The translations under genes were made by a program, and so were the position numbers. From the NCBI GenBank assembly GCA_003165595.1, contig PLWQ01000027.1, positions 24,864 to 82,367 of the forward strand: DNA of 57,504 bases, read 5' to 3'. This document shows positions 47,495 through 57,331 of this stretch, in pieces; the first letter of the stretch is position 1; the number at the start of each line of letters is the position of its first letter. The notes under the pieces are model-generated. The model had not been told where the DNA came from. It did not search any database and was given only the letters and a program-made list of their open reading frames with translations. This stretch comes from Fibrobacterota bacterium. GTDB taxonomy: Bacteria > Fibrobacterota > Chitinivibrionia > Chitinivibrionales > FEN-1185.

Positions 47495-47989
47495 ATTCCC
47501 CCCGGGAAGAGTTTGAACAAACGAGAGTAGTAATCTAAATAATGGGATGACTGGGGAGCTTCATGTGCGTTCCGGCAAGTTGTGCAGAATCGTGACATGT
47601 CCAATCTAATGCCGGTAGGGCCTGACCCTCATACCAAGCTCGCATGCTCGCTTTGGCTCGAACAGCACGAGCGGCAAACCCTTTGGCCTCGGGGGCGGCG
47701 CTGATGGCGGGAAGAGAATGCAGCTGTCAATTCATCGACCTCTACGGCGGCCAAGCTTGACATTTGTGCAAATTCACTTCTGCCAAGCGTTAGGCGGACT
47801 GAAGCGGTGTGCGGGAGCACAGTGCCGGCCGACCCGCGCCGCAGGCGCCAAGGGCGGACCGGCACCGAGGCTATTGGCCGAGCCCGCAAGGGGAACGCCC
47901 ATACTCCCATACTTATTTAGCGGCGGGGCGCCCAAATCTAAATTTTGATCCCGGTCTTGTTGCACCGGGCATGGAATTATTTTCAACCG
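47495..47989. other. Intergenic region with a family E repeat
   Basis: There is no gene here. Positions 47776-47900 are a family E repeat. Positions 47495-47775 show short direct and inverted oligomers (for example CATACCAAGCTCGCATGCTC), but nothing I can assign. The promoter of the secreted protein starting at 47494 should lie at the left end. Confidence 0.55.
47776..47900 (-). repeat. Family E GC-rich intergenic repeat, copy 4
   Basis: It runs from ACTTCTGCCAAGCGTTAGGC to GGGGAACGCCC in minus orientation, with the core GTGCCGGCCGACCCGCGCC and GGACCGGCACCGAGGC. Its first 18 bases are identical to the complementary end of copy 5. Confidence 0.8.
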
Positions 47990-50175: not shown

Positions 50176-50635
50176 AAATTCCCGTATGTCCGAACCCGCC
50201 CGTTCCCCTGTCCGTCTCCGACACGGATGCGCTTTCTTTAAAGTCAATATCATTCGACACCCCCGCGACCACGAGCTGCGCAATACGGTCGCCCCGCTTG
50301 ATTGTAAACGGCGCGCTGCCCGCGTTGGCAAGGATCACCTTCACTTCGCCCCGGTAGTCCGAGTCTATGGTGCCCGGAGAATTGAGCACGAACACGCCAT
50401 GCTTGATGGCGAGTCCGGAGCGCGAGCGCACCTGCACTTCGTACCCTTGCGGGATCTCAAAACAGAATCCGGTGGGCACCAGCGCGCGGCCTGACGGTTG
50501 GAGCACGACGTCGGCCTCCACGGCAGCGGCAATGTCGCAGCCGCTGGAGCCTTTGGTCATGCGAAGGGGTATGGGCAAATCGCCGGCGTGCGGCAACCGC
50601 CGGACCATGATTTTGGGAGGTGTCTTTTTGGGCAT
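50174..50635 (-). CDS. dut: Deoxyuridine 5'-triphosphate nucleotidohydrolase
   Basis: The 153-residue dUTPase hydrolyses dUTP to dUMP and pyrophosphate, keeping uracil out of DNA. All trimeric dUTPase motifs are present: SSGCDIAA (motif I), RSRSGLA (II), 'GVFVLNSPGTIDSDYRGEV' (III), 'RGDRIAQLV' (IV) and the terminal 'RGTGGFGHTG' (V). Motif I has Gly-Cys in place of the common Gly-Tyr. The start at 50635 has a weak GGAA site. A longer frame reaches 50707 without support. It is divergent from the end-joining operon. Confidence 0.95.
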   Translation of the reverse strand: MPKKTPPKIMVRRLPHAGDLPIPLRMTKGSSGCDIAAAVEADVVLQPSGRALVPTGFCFEIPQGYEVQVRSRSGLAIKHGVFVLNSPGTIDSDYRGEVKVILANAGSAPFTIKRGDRIAQLVVAGVSNDIDFKESASVSETDRGTGGFGHTGI

Positions 50636-50723
50636 GGGTGTTCCGTTTCCTGATTGGTTTGCCGATTGTTGCCTGAGCAAATTACGATGTGATCTGAGAA
50701 AAGTCAATTATTTGGAAAGGAAG

Positions 50724-50816
50724 ACTCACCACAGAGAAGAACAAGATTCACCGCAAAGGTTTGCCCTCGACCTGATCGGGGGCGCAAAGAACGCAAAAGG
50801 GCGCAAAGAAGAGAAG
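50724..50816. repeat. Composite of family A and B half-repeats upstream of the Ku operon
   Basis: A truncated family A unit (CTCACCACAGAGAAGAAC) is followed by family B heptamers (TTCACCGCAAAGG, GGCGCAAAGAACGCAAAAGG, GCGCAAAG). Between the B heptamers lies a foreign 22-bp piece. The unit occupies the divergent gap between dut and the first Ku gene, where their promoters should lie. Confidence 0.7.
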
Positions 50817-50888
50817 ATTCAGCAATGTTCAAAACATGATTTTCTGGCCCATATTTTGCAAGCCTTAGTTGTACAGAAAGGAGCGGGT

Positions 50889-51656
50889 ATGGCCTCAACA
50901 CTCTGGATCGGAAACATACAATTCGGCGGCATCAGCGTTCCTGTAAAACTCCACGCCGCGGTGAGTCAAGACCGTGTTCAGTTTCACCTCTTGCACAAAA
51001 CAGACCGCGTTAGACTGCGGCAACAGATGATATGCAAACTTGACAAGGCTCCCGTGCCTGCCGGGGAGCAGGTAAAAGGGTTTCAGGTGGACGAAAGGAA
51101 ATACGTTCTTATAGACGCGGAAGAACTCGAACAAGCCGAGCCTGAAGCAAGCAGGACCATTGATGTACACGAATTCGTAAAGACCGGCGAGATTGATCCC
51201 GTTTTCGTCGAACATGTTTATTACCTGGAGCCTGACGCTTCGCAGAAAGCGTACGGCGCGCTGGCCGCAGCTCTCAAAGACATGGACGCGCAGGGTGTTT
51301 GCACGTGGGTGATGAGAAAACGGGCCTATTTTGGCGCACTGCAGTCGGCCGGGCATGCACTCAGGCTCAACGTACTCCGGTACACCGACGAGATAGTACA
51401 GGCAAATTCACTTGGCCTTGAGTCGTTTGAATTGTCCGAAAAAGAGGTGGGCATAGGTTGCGAATTAATACAAAAGCTTACGGTACACTTTGAGCCGGGA
51501 AAGTACGGCAACGAACACCAGAAGAAGCTGCGGGACATGATAGAGAAAAAGGCGCATGGCCAGAAAATCGCGCTCTTCACGCCGAAGCACCTTAAACCCA
51601 CCGAGCCCGGCACATTGCTCGATGCGCTCGAAAAAAGCCTGAAAGGGGCCGCATGA
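50889..51656 (+). CDS. ku: Ku protein (end-joining), first copy
   Basis: The 255-residue bacterial Ku forms a ring that binds broken DNA ends and recruits the ligase. Recognisable features are 'LWIGNIQFGGISVPVKL', 'QVDERKYVLIDAEEL', 'TIDVHEFVKTGEIDPVF' and 'YYLEPDASQKAYGAL'. The C-terminus is short and moderately basic. The start at 50889 has AAAGGAG; the frame continues upstream through repeat sequence, which is not part of the gene. The stop overlaps the start of a second Ku gene (ATGA). Confidence 0.93.
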   Translation: MASTLWIGNIQFGGISVPVKLHAAVSQDRVQFHLLHKTDRVRLRQQMICKLDKAPVPAGEQVKGFQVDERKYVLIDAEELEQAEPEASRTIDVHEFVKTGEIDPVFVEHVYYLEPDASQKAYGALAAALKDMDAQGVCTWVMRKRAYFGALQSAGHALRLNVLRYTDEIVQANSLGLESFELSEKEVGIGCELIQKLTVHFEPGKYGNEHQKKLRDMIEKKAHGQKIALFTPKHLKPTEPGTLLDALEKSLKGAA

Positions 51657-52504
51657 TGATGCAGCACGGCAAGGCAAAAGCCGCACGAAGCAACGGGAAA
51701 AAGACCGAATCGGCTCCCCATGAAGCGCCCGCGCAGGGAATCTGGAGCGGCACCGTAAGCTTTAGCCTGGTGGCCATTCCTGTCCGACTTGTAAAGTTGG
51801 TGGAACCGGGCCGTATCTCGCTGCACCTGCTCCATGCCAAGGACTTCTCGCCCCTCGAACGCGCGATGTTTTGCCCCGAAGAAGAGAAAATCGTCCCGCA
51901 GGAAGAGATCATCAGGGGTTTTGAAATAGAACCGGGGAAACACGTCTTGATAACGGGCGAGGAACTGGAATCCGTGTCACCCGAAAGGAGCCGCACCATC
52001 GAGATAACGGAATTTATCGACATAAAGGAAGTTGACGCGCTCTATTACGACCATCCGTATTTCCTTGTCCCGCTCAAGGGCGGGGAAAAATCCTACCGCC
52101 TGCTGGCGGAGGCGATGCACAGGACCGCCAGAGCGGGCGTCGCGAAATTCGTTCTTGACGACAGGGAATACCTCGTGGTGATCATGAGCAGAGACGGCGC
52201 ACTGGCCGTGAGCACGCTTCATTACAGCGACGAAATACTGCCGGAAAACGCTTTGGCGCCGGCAGCCGAAGCCTCGGAAGAGAACGTCATCAAGAAAACC
52301 ATACAGGGAATGATGACCGGCTTTACCCCGGAGAAATACTCAAACGACCGCAGGGAAAAGCTCTTGAGCATTATCAACAAAAAGGTGAAGAAAAGGGCCG
52401 AGGTCGAAGCGCCGGAACCGGAGGAGGAAGAAGCGGCGGAAGGCGTGGCGGACCTGATGAGCGCCCTGGAGAAATCCATGCGCGCAACGAAAAAGGGCAC
52501 ATGA
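51653..52504 (+). CDS. ku: Ku protein (end-joining), second copy
   Basis: The 283-residue second Ku has an N-terminal basic extension of about 30 residues before the Ku core ('IWSGTVSFSLVAIPVRLVKL'). The same landmarks follow ('EIEPGKHVLITGEELES', 'TIEITEFIDIKEVDALYY'). A strongly acidic tail near 245-262 (EAPEPEEEEAAEG) sets it apart from the first copy. Two adjacent unlike Ku genes could form a heterodimer. Both of its ends overlap neighbours by four bases, so it is translationally coupled. Confidence 0.93.
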   Translation: MMMQHGKAKAARSNGKKTESAPHEAPAQGIWSGTVSFSLVAIPVRLVKLVEPGRISLHLLHAKDFSPLERAMFCPEEEKIVPQEEIIRGFEIEPGKHVLITGEELESVSPERSRTIEITEFIDIKEVDALYYDHPYFLVPLKGGEKSYRLLAEAMHRTARAGVAKFVLDDREYLVVIMSRDGALAVSTLHYSDEILPENALAPAAEASEENVIKKTIQGMMTGFTPEKYSNDRREKLLSIINKKVKKRAEVEAPEPEEEEAAEGVADLMSALEKSMRATKKGT

Positions 52505-53412
52505 ACGGGAAAACCGTGACTATTAACAGCCGGGAACTGTCGTTGTCAAACCTTGACAAGGACATGTATCCGCCGTATGGCTTTACAAAAACACGGTTGC
52601 TCGAATATTACAGCCTTATTGCGCAATTCATGCTCCCGTTTCTCGAGGGCCGGGCACTGACGCTCAAGCGTTATCCGCAGGGAGTGGACCGCGATTTTTT
52701 CTTTGAGAAGCGCTGTCCGCAACACCGCCCGGCCTGGATGGAAACCGCCGAGGTCCCTTATGGCGAGAAAAAAGTGATTACCTACTGCATGGCCAACAAC
52801 CTGGAATCGCTGGTGTGGCTGGGAAACCTTGCGTCGATCGAGCTTCATGTCCCCATGGCAAAGGCGGATTCCCCCGGCAATCCTGATTCAATGGTTTTTG
52901 ACCTTGACCCGGGCGACGGCGCCGGCGTCCTTGACTGCGCCAGGGTGGCGCTCATCGTGAGGGACCTGCTTTCGGGCTTGAAGCTTGAAAGCTTTGCAAA
53001 GACTTCCGGCAAAAAGGGGCTGCATGTCTTTGTGCCCCTTGATCCAGGGAAAACGACATTCCAGGACACGAAGACTTTTTCCAGGGCAGTGGCCGCCATC
53101 ATGCAGAAGAAATTTCCCGGCCTTGTGACGGCCAGGATGAACAAGGAATACCGCAGGAACAAAGTATTTATCAACTGGTCCCAGAACGACGCATCCAAGA
53201 CCATGGTCTGCGTCTATTCTTTACGCGCCGTGGAAAAGCCATCGGTGTCGTTTCCCGTTTCGTGGAAAGATCTTGAGAAAACGGCATCGCAGAAGGACCC
53301 CGGAAAATTCCAGGTCCTTGCGCCTGAAGCAAGTGCACTGGCTGAGAAAAAGGGTGGATTTTACCGGGAGCTGTTGGGAATGAAACAGAGGTTGCCGCAC
53401 ACATGGGCTTAA
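52501..53412 (+). CDS. ligD: LigD polymerase-domain protein (primase-polymerase)
   Basis: The 303-residue protein is a stand-alone LigD polymerase domain (AEP fold) that fills gaps and prefers ribonucleotides at DNA ends. Catalytic acidic residues Asp134 and Asp136 lie in VFDLDPGDG. 'GKKGLHVFVPL', 'INWSQNDASKTMVCVYSLRA' and the N-terminal 'SNLDKDMYPPYGFTKTRLLE' are typical. In many bacteria this domain is fused to the ligase; here it is a separate gene overlapping both neighbours (four bases with Ku, ten with the ligase gene). Confidence 0.93.
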   Translation: MNGKTVTINSRELSLSNLDKDMYPPYGFTKTRLLEYYSLIAQFMLPFLEGRALTLKRYPQGVDRDFFFEKRCPQHRPAWMETAEVPYGEKKVITYCMANNLESLVWLGNLASIELHVPMAKADSPGNPDSMVFDLDPGDGAGVLDCARVALIVRDLLSGLKLESFAKTSGKKGLHVFVPLDPGKTTFQDTKTFSRAVAAIMQKKFPGLVTARMNKEYRRNKVFINWSQNDASKTMVCVYSLRAVEKPSVSFPVSWKDLEKTASQKDPGKFQVLAPEASALAEKKGGFYRELLGMKQRLPHTWA

Positions 53413-54980
53413 AAGAATACAGGCAAAAACGCGCATTGGAAAAGACGCCGGAGCCCGGACCGGGATCTTTACAAACAAACGAGGGGCGTTATCTCGCGTT
53501 TGTCGTGCACAAGCACGCCAGCCGCAGGCTCCATTATGACCTGAGGCTCGAAATGGACGGCGTGCTCAAGAGTTTCGCCGTTCCCAAAGGGCCCTCTCTG
53601 GACCCGACCGTAAAGAGGCTGGCGGTCCATGTTGAGGACCACCCTTTTGAGTACAAAGATTTTGAAGGCGTTATCCCCGCGGGCAATTACGGCGCAGGCC
53701 GGGTGATAATCTGGGACAGAGGTTTGTACGGTTCGCCTTTTGCAAAGGACAAACACGAAGGCGAAGAATTGCTTCTGAAAGGCCTGCGGAAAGGCGATTT
53801 GAAATTTGTGCTTGCCGGAAGCAAACTCAAGGGCGAGTTTGCCCTTGTCAAGACCGGGTGGGACGACAAATCGTGGCTCCTGTTGAAGAAAAAGGACCGT
53901 TACACGGTTGCCGACGACATCCTTGCGCAGGACCGATCGGTAGTTTCCAACAAGACCGTTGATGAACTCTCCGAAGAAAGCCCCGCCGGGCCCGCGAAAC
54001 GAACCGTAACGGCGGCGCAAAAACCGGTTGCAAACATCCCGGCCGGTGCGCCGGTGAGGCCCCTGCCGCACGGCATTGAGCCCATGCTGGCCGAGGCCGC
54101 GCAGAAGCCGTTCAACCACGCGGACTGGCTTTTTGAAGTGAAGTGGGACGGCTACCGGGCGATTGCGGAGCTGGACAAAGGGAATATCGCGCTTTATTCC
54201 CGCAACGGCATTTCGCTTGTAAAGAAGTTCGCTCCCGTTGTCGAATCCCTGCAAAAGCTCGGCATGCAAGCGGTGCTGGACGGCGAAGTGGTGATTGCGG
54301 ACCACAGCGGCAAGCCTGACTTCCAGAAGCTCCAGGATTATCCCAAATCAAAAAGCGGCCGTTTGCTGTATTATGTCTTTGACATCCTATACTACAGGGG
54401 CCGCGACCTGACCGGGCTGCCGCTTGTGCAAAGAAAGGAACTCTTGAAGTCGATCCTTCCACCGGACGAGCGCATCAAATACTCCGAACACATCCGGAAG
54501 GACGGCGTATCCTTCTTTAGCGCGGCGAAACAAAAGGGCATCGAAGGCATTGTCGCCAAACATTCTTTGAGCACGTACAAGCCCGGAACCAGGAGCAAGC
54601 AGTGGCTCAAGATAAAGAACCGTATTACCCAGGACTGCGTGATCGCCGGATTTACCGAGCCCCGCGGAGCGCGAAGATATTTGGGCAGCATCGTTCTCGG
54701 CGCGTACGACAAAGGCGCTTTTGTTTACATCGGCCATTCGGGCGGGGCCTTTGCCGCCCAAACCCTCAAAACGATGTACGAAAAACTCCGGCCCCTGGCG
54801 CGGAAAACCTGTCCGTTCAAAACTATGCCGCCCGGGGAAAGCCCGACCACCTGGATACGACCGGTGATGGTCTGCGAAGTCGCTTTTGCGGGCTGGACAA
54901 AGGAGATGTTGATGCGGCAGCCGCGTTTCCTGAGGTTCAGGGACGACAAAAAGCCGAACGAAGCGGTATTCGCCCCCTGA
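53403..54980 (+). CDS. ligD: LigD phosphoesterase-ligase protein
   Basis: The 525-residue protein joins a 3'-phosphoesterase domain (about 20-190) to an ATP-dependent DNA ligase domain (about 220-525). Phosphoesterase motifs are 'HKHASRRLHYDLRLE' and 'GVIPAGNYGAG'. The ligase nucleophile is Lys247 in KWDGYR, followed by 'VLDGEVV', 'FDILYYRGRDL' and 'KQWLKIKNR'. The protein would trim 3' ends and seal breaks held by Ku. The polymerase domain is encoded separately just upstream, so LigD is split into two proteins. Confidence 0.94.
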   Translation: MGLKEYRQKRALEKTPEPGPGSLQTNEGRYLAFVVHKHASRRLHYDLRLEMDGVLKSFAVPKGPSLDPTVKRLAVHVEDHPFEYKDFEGVIPAGNYGAGRVIIWDRGLYGSPFAKDKHEGEELLLKGLRKGDLKFVLAGSKLKGEFALVKTGWDDKSWLLLKKKDRYTVADDILAQDRSVVSNKTVDELSEESPAGPAKRTVTAAQKPVANIPAGAPVRPLPHGIEPMLAEAAQKPFNHADWLFEVKWDGYRAIAELDKGNIALYSRNGISLVKKFAPVVESLQKLGMQAVLDGEVVIADHSGKPDFQKLQDYPKSKSGRLLYYVFDILYYRGRDLTGLPLVQRKELLKSILPPDERIKYSEHIRKDGVSFFSAAKQKGIEGIVAKHSLSTYKPGTRSKQWLKIKNRITQDCVIAGFTEPRGARRYLGSIVLGAYDKGAFVYIGHSGGAFAAQTLKTMYEKLRPLARKTCPFKTMPPGESPTTWIRPVMVCEVAFAGWTKEMLMRQPRFLRFRDDKKPNEAVFAP

Positions 54981-55037
54981 ATCCCGGGAACGGGCGCAGG
55001 AACATCGAACGCAGCAAAAATGGAAAGTGGGGACCAC

Positions 55038-55769
55038 ATGAAAATTCTTACGGGTACAAGCGGTTACGGTTACAAGGAATGGAAGGGAAATTTCTATCCC
55101 GAGAAGTTATCCGCGGACAAGATGCTCGCCTTTTACAGCAAACGGCTTTCGACCGTGGAAATCAACAACACGTTTTATCGCATGCCCACAGCAAATGTCG
55201 TCCAATCGTGGGCCGAGCAGGTGCCGGCAGGGTTCACTTTTGTCATCAAGGCTCCCCAGATCATTACGCATGTGAAGCGCCTGAAAGACGTGAAGGAGGA
55301 GACGCGGTATTTTTTCAAAACGATCGCTTTTCTGGGCAAGAAGCTCGGCCCCGTGCTCTTTCAGTTTCCGGGCAGTTTTCGGGAGAACTTGCCTCTGCTC
55401 GAGGATTTTCTGGGCCTTGTCCCGCCGAAAGCTCTTTGCGCATTTTTGTTCAGGAACAAGTCGTGGTTCCAGGAAGAGACCTATAGCCTGCTTCGCAAAG
55501 GAAAATTCTGCCTTGGTCTGGAGGACACGGACGAAGAGCCGATACAGGATATTGTCGGCACCGCTCCGTGGGGTTATCTGCGATTGCGCAGGGCGGATTA
55601 CACCGAAGAAGAGCTCTCGCAATGGGCGGACAAAGTGACGGCTCAGGAATGGAAAAAGGCTTTCGTTTTTTTCAAGCATGAGGATGACGCGGCGGCGCGG
55701 GGCCCACAGCTTGCGGAGAGCTTTAGAGAGCTTGTGAGAAGTGACGCTAAGGTGGGAGCAATTCAATAA
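55038..55769 (+). CDS. DUF72 family protein
   Basis: The 243-residue protein is a DUF72 barrel with 'ILTGTSGYGYKEWKGNFYPE', 'VEINNTFYRMPTANVVQSWA', 'FTFVIKAPQIITHVKRLKD' and 'GPVLFQFPGSF'. The family has no firmly established activity; a nuclease or metal-enzyme role has been suggested. It is the last gene of the end-joining operon, 57 bp after the ligase gene, which hints at a link to DNA-end processing (inference). The start at 55038 has GTGGGGA upstream; ATG 55020 in the same frame is an alternative. Confidence 0.88.
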   Translation: MKILTGTSGYGYKEWKGNFYPEKLSADKMLAFYSKRLSTVEINNTFYRMPTANVVQSWAEQVPAGFTFVIKAPQIITHVKRLKDVKEETRYFFKTIAFLGKKLGPVLFQFPGSFRENLPLLEDFLGLVPPKALCAFLFRNKSWFQEETYSLLRKGKFCLGLEDTDEEPIQDIVGTAPWGYLRLRRADYTEEELSQWADKVTAQEWKKAFVFFKHEDDAAARGPQLAESFRELVRSDAKVGAIQ

Positions 55770-55770
55770 G

Positions 55771-56127
55771 ATTCACCGCAAAGACGCAAAGAACGCAAAA
55801 AATCGCAAAGAAGAGAAGATTCACCACAGAGACACAGAGAACACAGAGAAGAATAAAATTCACGGCAGAACGGGTGCGGCGAAATGAAGATAAAGGCCTG
55901 GGCGTTCCCCGGCCAAAGGCCGGGGCGGTTCTTCCTCCGGGCTCGGCCACAGGCCTCGGTACCGCCCTGCCGCTATGGCCTGTCGGCCGCGGTCAGGCGG
56001 TACTGCGCTCTGCGCACCCATCGGTCGCCCCTAACGCTTGGCAGAAGTTTACTGCCACAATTTTGGCAATCGCCCCTTCTTAACTGTTAATTCCTCGCCA
56101 TGCCCTCAGTGTCTCTGTGGTGAGTCT
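55771..56127. repeat. Nested repeat: family B and A arms enclosing a family E copy
   Basis: Family B (about 55771-55818, ATTCACCGCAAAGACGCAAA and more heptamers) and family A (about 55819-55851) form the left side. A family E copy lies within (55900-56048). A right family A arm (56105-56127, CTCAGTGTCTCTGTGGTGAG) closes the structure. The last residues of the HNH-like gene lie in that right arm. Confidence 0.75.
55900..56048 (+). repeat. Family E GC-rich intergenic repeat, copy 5
   Basis: It runs from GGGCGTTCCCC to CTAACGCTTGGCAGAAGT in plus orientation, with the core CCTCGGTACCGCCC. The 18-base right end is identical to copy 4. Confidence 0.8.
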
Positions 56128-57029
56128 TCGCAGTAGTCTTTTACCTTAGCGCACAGCGCGACGAAATCTTCGGGCGTGCGGCCGCTTTTGCAGCAGTTGA
56201 CGAGCCATGAGCAGATTTCAAACGAGAGGGCTTTTGTCGAGGGGTCGATGTGGTCGACCGTGGGCAGGAGCGTGAATTCTTCCAGAAATATCTCGTGATC
56301 GTCGCTGCCTTTTGTCGTGTTCCAGGCGCCGATCTTGTCCCACGCCAGAGGATCTCCGGTGTACGGATCGTGCAGGCCGGATGCGCAGACGGCGGCGTGG
56401 ATCGCCTCGCGGTAGAGAGACCTGCTCGCGCCCAGCGCGCAGGCGCGCTTCAATTTGAGGTCGCGCTTGTATAGTTCCTTCGCCCGCGCAAGCAGCCATT
56501 TGTCGTACTGCGGGAACGTGCAAATACCCTGCAAAAACGGCGGCAGAAGGTATTTGGCGGGAAATGTCACGACCCTCCCCTGTTTTCCGCTTGCCCGGTA
56601 CTCGACGATTCTGTTGCACAGAGCAATGAACTGACCGGGATTGAGGAAGCTTTTGCAGCAGTTCACCTCCCACGAACATATTTCAAAAGCAAGCGCGTTG
56701 CCCCGGGGATCCACATGATCGATGGTGGGCATCAAATAGAATTGCTTCACATAATCGGCATCGGACTTGGCGCTTTGCGGGTCCCACGTGCTTATCAGGT
56801 CCCACTTGAGTTTGTCTCCCGTATACGGATCAAGCGGCCCGCTTGCCCCGACCGCGCCGTTTACCGTCTCCTTGTATTGCACAATAGTGCTCTTTAATGC
56901 AACCGGAAGCTTCCGTCTTTTGTCGCGTTTGAACAGCGCCCAGGCCTTGACGCGGACCCAATTGTCGTAGGCCGCGGGAGTGAGCAGGCCTTGAAGGAAT
57001 TGCGGCAGGGGAAATGAGAAGGCGGGCAT
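56106..57029 (-). CDS. Tandem-duplicated HNH-like (His-Me finger) protein
   Basis: The 307-residue protein consists of two copies of one domain of about 140 residues (about 5-145 and 160-300). Each copy has a helical part with 'FLQG', a KRD motif, and DPYTGD followed by a tryptophan. Then comes PT(I/V)DH(V/I)DP and FEICSWxVNCCKS. The Asp-His pairs (104-105, 259-260), Asn123/Asn278 and Lys126/Lys281 fit an HNH nuclease core, although classic zinc cysteines are absent. The last six residues come from a family A repeat. I do not know a named family for the duplicated form. The start at 57029 lacks a clear ribosome-binding site; the longer frame runs into repeats. Confidence 0.7.
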   Translation of the reverse strand: MPAFSFPLPQFLQGLLTPAAYDNWVRVKAWALFKRDKRRKLPVALKSTIVQYKETVNGAVGASGPLDPYTGDKLKWDLISTWDPQSAKSDADYVKQFYLMPTIDHVDPRGNALAFEICSWEVNCCKSFLNPGQFIALCNRIVEYRASGKQGRVVTFPAKYLLPPFLQGICTFPQYDKWLLARAKELYKRDLKLKRACALGASRSLYREAIHAAVCASGLHDPYTGDPLAWDKIGAWNTTKGSDDHEIFLEEFTLLPTVDHIDPSTKALSFEICSWLVNCCKSGRTPEDFVALCAKVKDYCEDSPQRH

Positions 57030-57046
57030 GGATAGAATATAAAAGA

Positions 57047-57331
<285 letters not shown>

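Follow-up and report, generated by a model that had tools for sequence, protein, structure and literature searches.

The window analysed here is a stretch of 57,504 nucleotides from a Fibrobacterota genome assembly of 5.39 Mb in 42 contigs. Near one end of it lies a gene for a tandem HNH-like protein, next to a DNA end-joining operon and among dispersed repeats. Re-reading of the sequence agreed in full with the preliminary description as to the open reading frame, its coordinates, the doubled motif sets and the two histidines. The frame opens with ATG and has no internal stops. An alternative GTG start at 57071 would give a protein of 321 aa; alignments of homologues begin at the ATG instead. 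The features of the locus are as follows.

50367..55769, plus strand: gene run Ku, Ku, LigD (polymerase), LigD (ligase) and a DUF72-like gene; the first Ku and the DUF72-like gene were recognised by eye only
55822..55839, plus strand: repeat R, downstream of the nuclease gene (repeat search)
55896..56074, plus strand: repeat P, a GC-rich palindromic dispersed element (repeat search)
56105..56122, minus strand: repeat R, supplying the stop and last codons (SPQRH-stop) of the gene (repeat search)
56106..57029, minus strand: tandem HNH-like protein, 307 aa (ORF reading, translation and self-alignment)
56106..56555, minus strand: C-terminal HNH-like domain, with DPYTGD, PTVDH260IDP and FEICSWLVNCCK
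56556..56588, minus strand: low-confidence linker, residues about 148-157 (pLDDT below 50 in the tandem model)
56586..57029, minus strand: N-terminal HNH-like domain, residues ~1-148, with DPYTGD, PTIDH105VDP and FEICSWEVNCCK
57049..57066, plus strand: repeat R, about 20 bp upstream of the ATG (repeat search)
57136..57153, plus strand: repeat R, second upstream copy (repeat search)

The two halves of the protein, each of about 150 residues, share 47% identity over 138 residues in self-alignment (E 1e-47). The motifs DPYTGD, PT(I/V)DH(V/I)DP and FEICSWxVNCCK each occur once per half, and the histidines stand at positions 105 and 260. The usual zinc cysteine pairs had been said to be missing and this is borne out, as no CxxC pair is present in the window protein; within the close family the only cysteines that stay conserved are Cys118 and Cys138. 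Profiles of Pfam, NCBIfam and PADLOC gave the window protein no named match. A profile search had been proposed in the preliminary description, and among PHROGs it returned endonuclease VII (PHROG 1035, E 3.9e-5), a match that is weak but repeated. Pfam HNH_4 matches one distant member of the family (E 0.0013). Searches of the PDB by sequence returned no match or spurious ones only, of the spider-toxin cysteine pattern kind, and Rfam gave nothing above threshold around the gene. A phage origin was considered and rejected, since one Fibrobacterota domain matched no phage record, a Gemmatimonadota domain gave marginal matches only, and IMG/VR scans yielded a single match of 26 residues.

The AF2 model of one half, based on a 17-sequence alignment, has a pLDDT of 88 and a pTM of 0.82. 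In this model two long helices (17-37 and 48-62) make up the helical N-terminal half of the domain and are followed by the DPYTGD turn, then strand 101-105 carries PTVDH and ends in the DH pair, strand 115-119 carries FEICS, and the Asn-bearing helix comes last. A model devoid of the beta-beta-alpha fold had been named beforehand as evidence against an HNH assignment; AF2 places such a core in both halves of the tandem protein, the second copy being formed by strands 256-260 and 270-274. The tandem model as a whole has a pTM of 0.45, and given this value and the flexible linker the placement of the halves relative to each other is not confidently predicted. Foldseek found no match in the PDB at E below 0.001, and its best match in BFVD had an E of 0.016. 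The structural neighbours of the tandem model in VIA-align were a type II restriction endonuclease (4l0k, Z 5.0), the Gme HNH nickase (4h9d, 4.7), EcoKMcrA (4.4), the HNH domain of Cas9 (about 3.3), T4 endonuclease VII (3.0 over 60 residues), Cap5 (2.7) and ScoMcrA (2.5), and such values, at most 5.0 throughout, lie within the range of chance arrangements. HNH enzymes nevertheless head the alignment rows for both halves and most of the solved structures listed are HNH nucleases; the HNH fold can be argued despite the low Z because most rows share a single fold class and span the stretch with the motifs.

Conservation of the putative active site points in the same direction. Across 14 diverse homologues, some with identity as low as 22%, Asp104, His105, Asn123 and Lys126 do not change, and the His, Asn and Lys do not vary in 22 aligned rows. 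The beta-beta-alpha cores, the HNH-dominated structural neighbours and the invariant His, Asn and Lys thus uphold the earlier idea of an HNH-like protein with two site sets. Judged from sequence and models, the family is very probably one of HNH-type nucleases, and its best reading is that of a predicted, uncatalogued family of HNH (beta-beta-alpha-metal, His-Me finger) endonucleases. In established enzymes with one-metal HNH chemistry, Asp and Asn are the metal ligands and His is the base (PMC4081073). By analogy with them, a single metal ion would be held by Asp104 and Asn123, with His105 as the residue that would activate the water.

Each of the known systems shares some of these properties with the window family and departs from it in others. 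T4 endonuclease VII, the protein of PHROG 1035, has in common with it the profile match and the predicted beta-beta-alpha core, but the family lacks the Cys4 zinc site and has a different N-terminal helical half, and the window protein does not match the Pfam endonuclease VII family and unites two domains on a single polypeptide. HNH type II restriction enzymes and nickases are the best structural neighbours, yet they show no detectable sequence relation, and the window locus is without a cognate methylase among the neighbours read by eye. The modification-dependent enzymes EcoKMcrA and ScoMcrA have a similar HNH core, whereas no recognised modified-base reader domain is found in the family; the association with methylating systems described below would be consistent with a Type IV role. 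Cap5, the CBASS effector, likewise serves defence with two HNH domains acting together, but these belong to different chains and are brought together under a domain that senses a second messenger, while the window protein has its two HNH-like domains fused and no sensor domain.

The host genome contains eight intact, divergent loci of the family, as well as fragments of the gene on contig C15. Five of the loci are tandem (C10, which is the window copy, C32, C4, C9 and C41) and three are single-domain (C21, C27 and C2). The closest deposited relatives of the window protein come from MAGs of Fibrobacteres and Chitinivibrionales, and within the Fibrobacterota matches were seen in 5 of 167 genomes, one of them merely marginal. 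Elsewhere homologues were found in 3 of 395 genomes of Gemmatimonadota, 6 of 387 of Verrucomicrobiota and 1 of 396 of Acidobacteriota, and in the Pseudomonadota on three plasmids. The duplicated protein is more than a product of chance, for this genome has seven other intact loci, of which four are tandem, and homologues occur in five phyla. The distribution is sporadic, with mostly one copy per genome outside the Fibrobacterota, and fragments also occur in genomes other than the host. The nuclease genes would move between lineages by horizontal transfer.

The gene neighbours of the homologues were surveyed as the preliminary description had proposed. Of about 22 loci, at least 10 are embedded among defence genes or adjoin them, a count that is not blind as the neighbours for the PADLOC scan were picked by eye. 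In Paraburkholderia sabiae the homologue follows brxL by 21 bp within a BREX-1 operon. In the PADLOC scan, the C2 copy was found to be followed downstream by BrxF, BrxC and PglXI; type IIG enzymes adjoin C32, G002:C500 and the Gemmatimonadota copy, and one lies near G643; a type III methylase adjoins G002:C46; DrmD-like (DISARM-like) helicases adjoin C4 and G1246, the latter also with adjoining ZacB/ZacC-like genes; and PDC-M41A adjoins C41. At some homologues, e.g. L027 and L075, a methyltransferase stands beside the nuclease, at about 26 bp. As a control, 110 random proteins from the host genome gave no matches to restriction-modification, BREX or DISARM families and only scattered matches to others. 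In the Verrucomicrobiota search, a RecA-like ATPase gene was read from the sequence directly before the homologue in two genomes (L122:648-1977 and L124:7718-9030).

The window copy itself has no recognised defence neighbour, as is also the case for C27, G002:C21 and G1265, and it is not in or next to a BREX locus. The defence role once suggested for this gene is carried by the neighbourhoods of its homologues and not by its own. An accessory anti-invader role is likely for the family. Least certain of all is what the window copy itself does; a defence function for it would follow by extension from the family. A 2026 survey of BREX counts standalone HNH domains among the auxiliary nucleases (PMC12839542). 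The small HNH genes in or by BREX operons that it covers are comparable to the P. sabiae homologue, and the portions of the survey consulted do not name the window family, which moreover occurs at type IIG and type III loci and elsewhere, and includes tandem forms.

The tandem form deserves separate attention. No tandem was present among the homologues found in phyla other than the Fibrobacterota, and phrase searches of the literature found no tandem single-chain HNH nuclease. In a tree of 23 domains a single clade was rejected for the N halves (AU p 0.008) and for the C halves (AU p 0.013). Both halves of G002:C137 group together, those of C41 do so less firmly, and the window protein and C32 appear to share one duplication. 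This pattern suggests that the tandem form arose more than once, though gene conversion between halves could imitate it. The repeated origin is suggestive of a built-in dimer. Each tandem half that was aligned keeps the catalytic residue set, which favours two working sites, and the tandem form is probably a tethered pair of active sites. It could be possible that, after head-to-tail fusion with both sites kept, the two tethered sites nick both strands with no need of a dimer, but as a double-strand cutter the protein is proposed here tentatively.

On balance we favour, with moderate confidence, a new HNH family of accessory anti-invader nucleases whose tandem form probably holds tethered sites. 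This reading builds directly on the domain duplication, the conserved residues, the predicted fold, the sporadic spread and the defence-linked homologues; DNA cleavage, metal use, a defence role for the window copy and the division of strands we infer. Within anti-invader islands, members of the family would serve as accessory nucleases, chiefly next to systems based on modification (BREX, type IIG, type III). A more ambitious form of it is rather unlikely as a whole, namely that of an exchangeable, single-chain pseudo-dimeric HNH restriction effector, recruited repeatedly by unrelated methylation-based systems (BREX, type IIG, type III, DISARM-like), in which the fusion evolved more than once and one chain cuts both strands. 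If the favoured reading is true, an unannotated HNH family missed by current defence finders would be a new entry among accessory nucleases in BREX and restriction-modification islands, and a natural single-chain HNH pair would become available for studying double-strand cleavage by beta-beta-alpha-metal nucleases.

The repeats around the gene bring in a different explanation. Copies of R (CACCACAGAGACACAGAG) and P bracket the window gene, so that it does lie among repeats as previously described. A second window copy of P lies at 47760-47898; P recurs on many contigs of the genome, with at least 44 matches and 128 candidates at first look, and Rfam gave no match to the copy at 55896-56074. 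The gene could be a self-spreading endonuclease gene, homing-like or element-associated, which cuts DNA for its own mobility or that of a repeat, with defence islands merely collecting mobile DNA. Seven of the eight intact loci in the host genome are within 300 bp of R or P, as against 16 of 324 control ORFs (Fisher p 2e-8), and the number of divergent intact copies in one genome, the fragments there and in others and the patchy spread would all agree with it. IntI-like (C9), XerD-like (C32) and P4-type (G643) integrases are nearby by sequence reading, as is a RAYT-like transposase (L077:6053-7030) located 19 bp upstream of the tandem gene G035:C183 on the same strand. However, the position and orientation of R and P vary around the nuclease genes, and no flanking unit other than these variably placed repeats is common to the copies. 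R also forms short inverted doublets next to ordinary or housekeeping genes; on these grounds R was rejected as the gene's own mobile ends. No copy examined sits inside an intron or intein or splits a conserved gene; at the loci read they are free-standing intergenic ORFs. Outside the Fibrobacterota the homologues are for the most part single copies, and several share an operon with genes of BREX or restriction-modification. Self-spreading is thus an unlikely account of the family. As for the mobility raised in the preliminary description, the closeness to repeats stands, but R does not single out these genes, and we read the gene as sitting in repeat-rich intergenic DNA rather than in a defined mobile unit.

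Some observations on these elements may be added. At C9, the IntI-like protein next to the tandem copy (L065:2995-4293) is by sequence reading an integron integrase, with genes on its 5' side pointing away in a cassette-like manner. An integron cassette was rejected for the nuclease gene, as the HNH gene is on the 3' side of this integrase and, by eye, the core motifs of P do not follow each other in the order of an attC site. An inverted R pair flanks the one PDDEXK_3 (GxxExxY) gene that was detected in this genome (L128:2028-2477, at G000:C16:30627-31076), and most other paired R clusters are plus/minus doublets with nothing in between, their two copies separated by about 60-160 bp. Possibly R derives, in the manner of a MITE, from an R-GxxExxY-R element.

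Two further readings are very improbable. The first is a repair or recombination nuclease, either an endonuclease VII-like resolvase or an end-processing partner of the Ku-LigD operon. The preliminary description was right about this operon, in which Ku, LigD polymerase and LigD ligase were identified, and its closeness together with the weak endonuclease VII match speaks for a repair function. But the nuclease gene is on the opposite strand, convergent with the operon and separated from it by about 340 bp of repeat-rich DNA, and the Cys4 site and Pfam match expected of endonuclease VII are absent. Neither Ku nor LigD was seen at the other loci read, so the neighbourhood looks incidental and the Ku-LigD run is probably not part of the system. 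The second, that the domain has lost its nuclease function and survives as a module for DNA binding or regulation, could call on an Akkermansiaceae homologue (L028:441-1268, also L062) which has an N-terminal extension and Leu and Ser in place of the His and Asn, but the other intact aligned domains, including both halves of the aligned tandems, keep Asp, His, Asn and Lys save for one change of Asp to Asn. Variation of the His and Asn had been named as evidence against the HNH assignment; it is confined to this one copy and does not extend to the 14 diverse homologues. The Akkermansiaceae homologue may be an inactive derivative.
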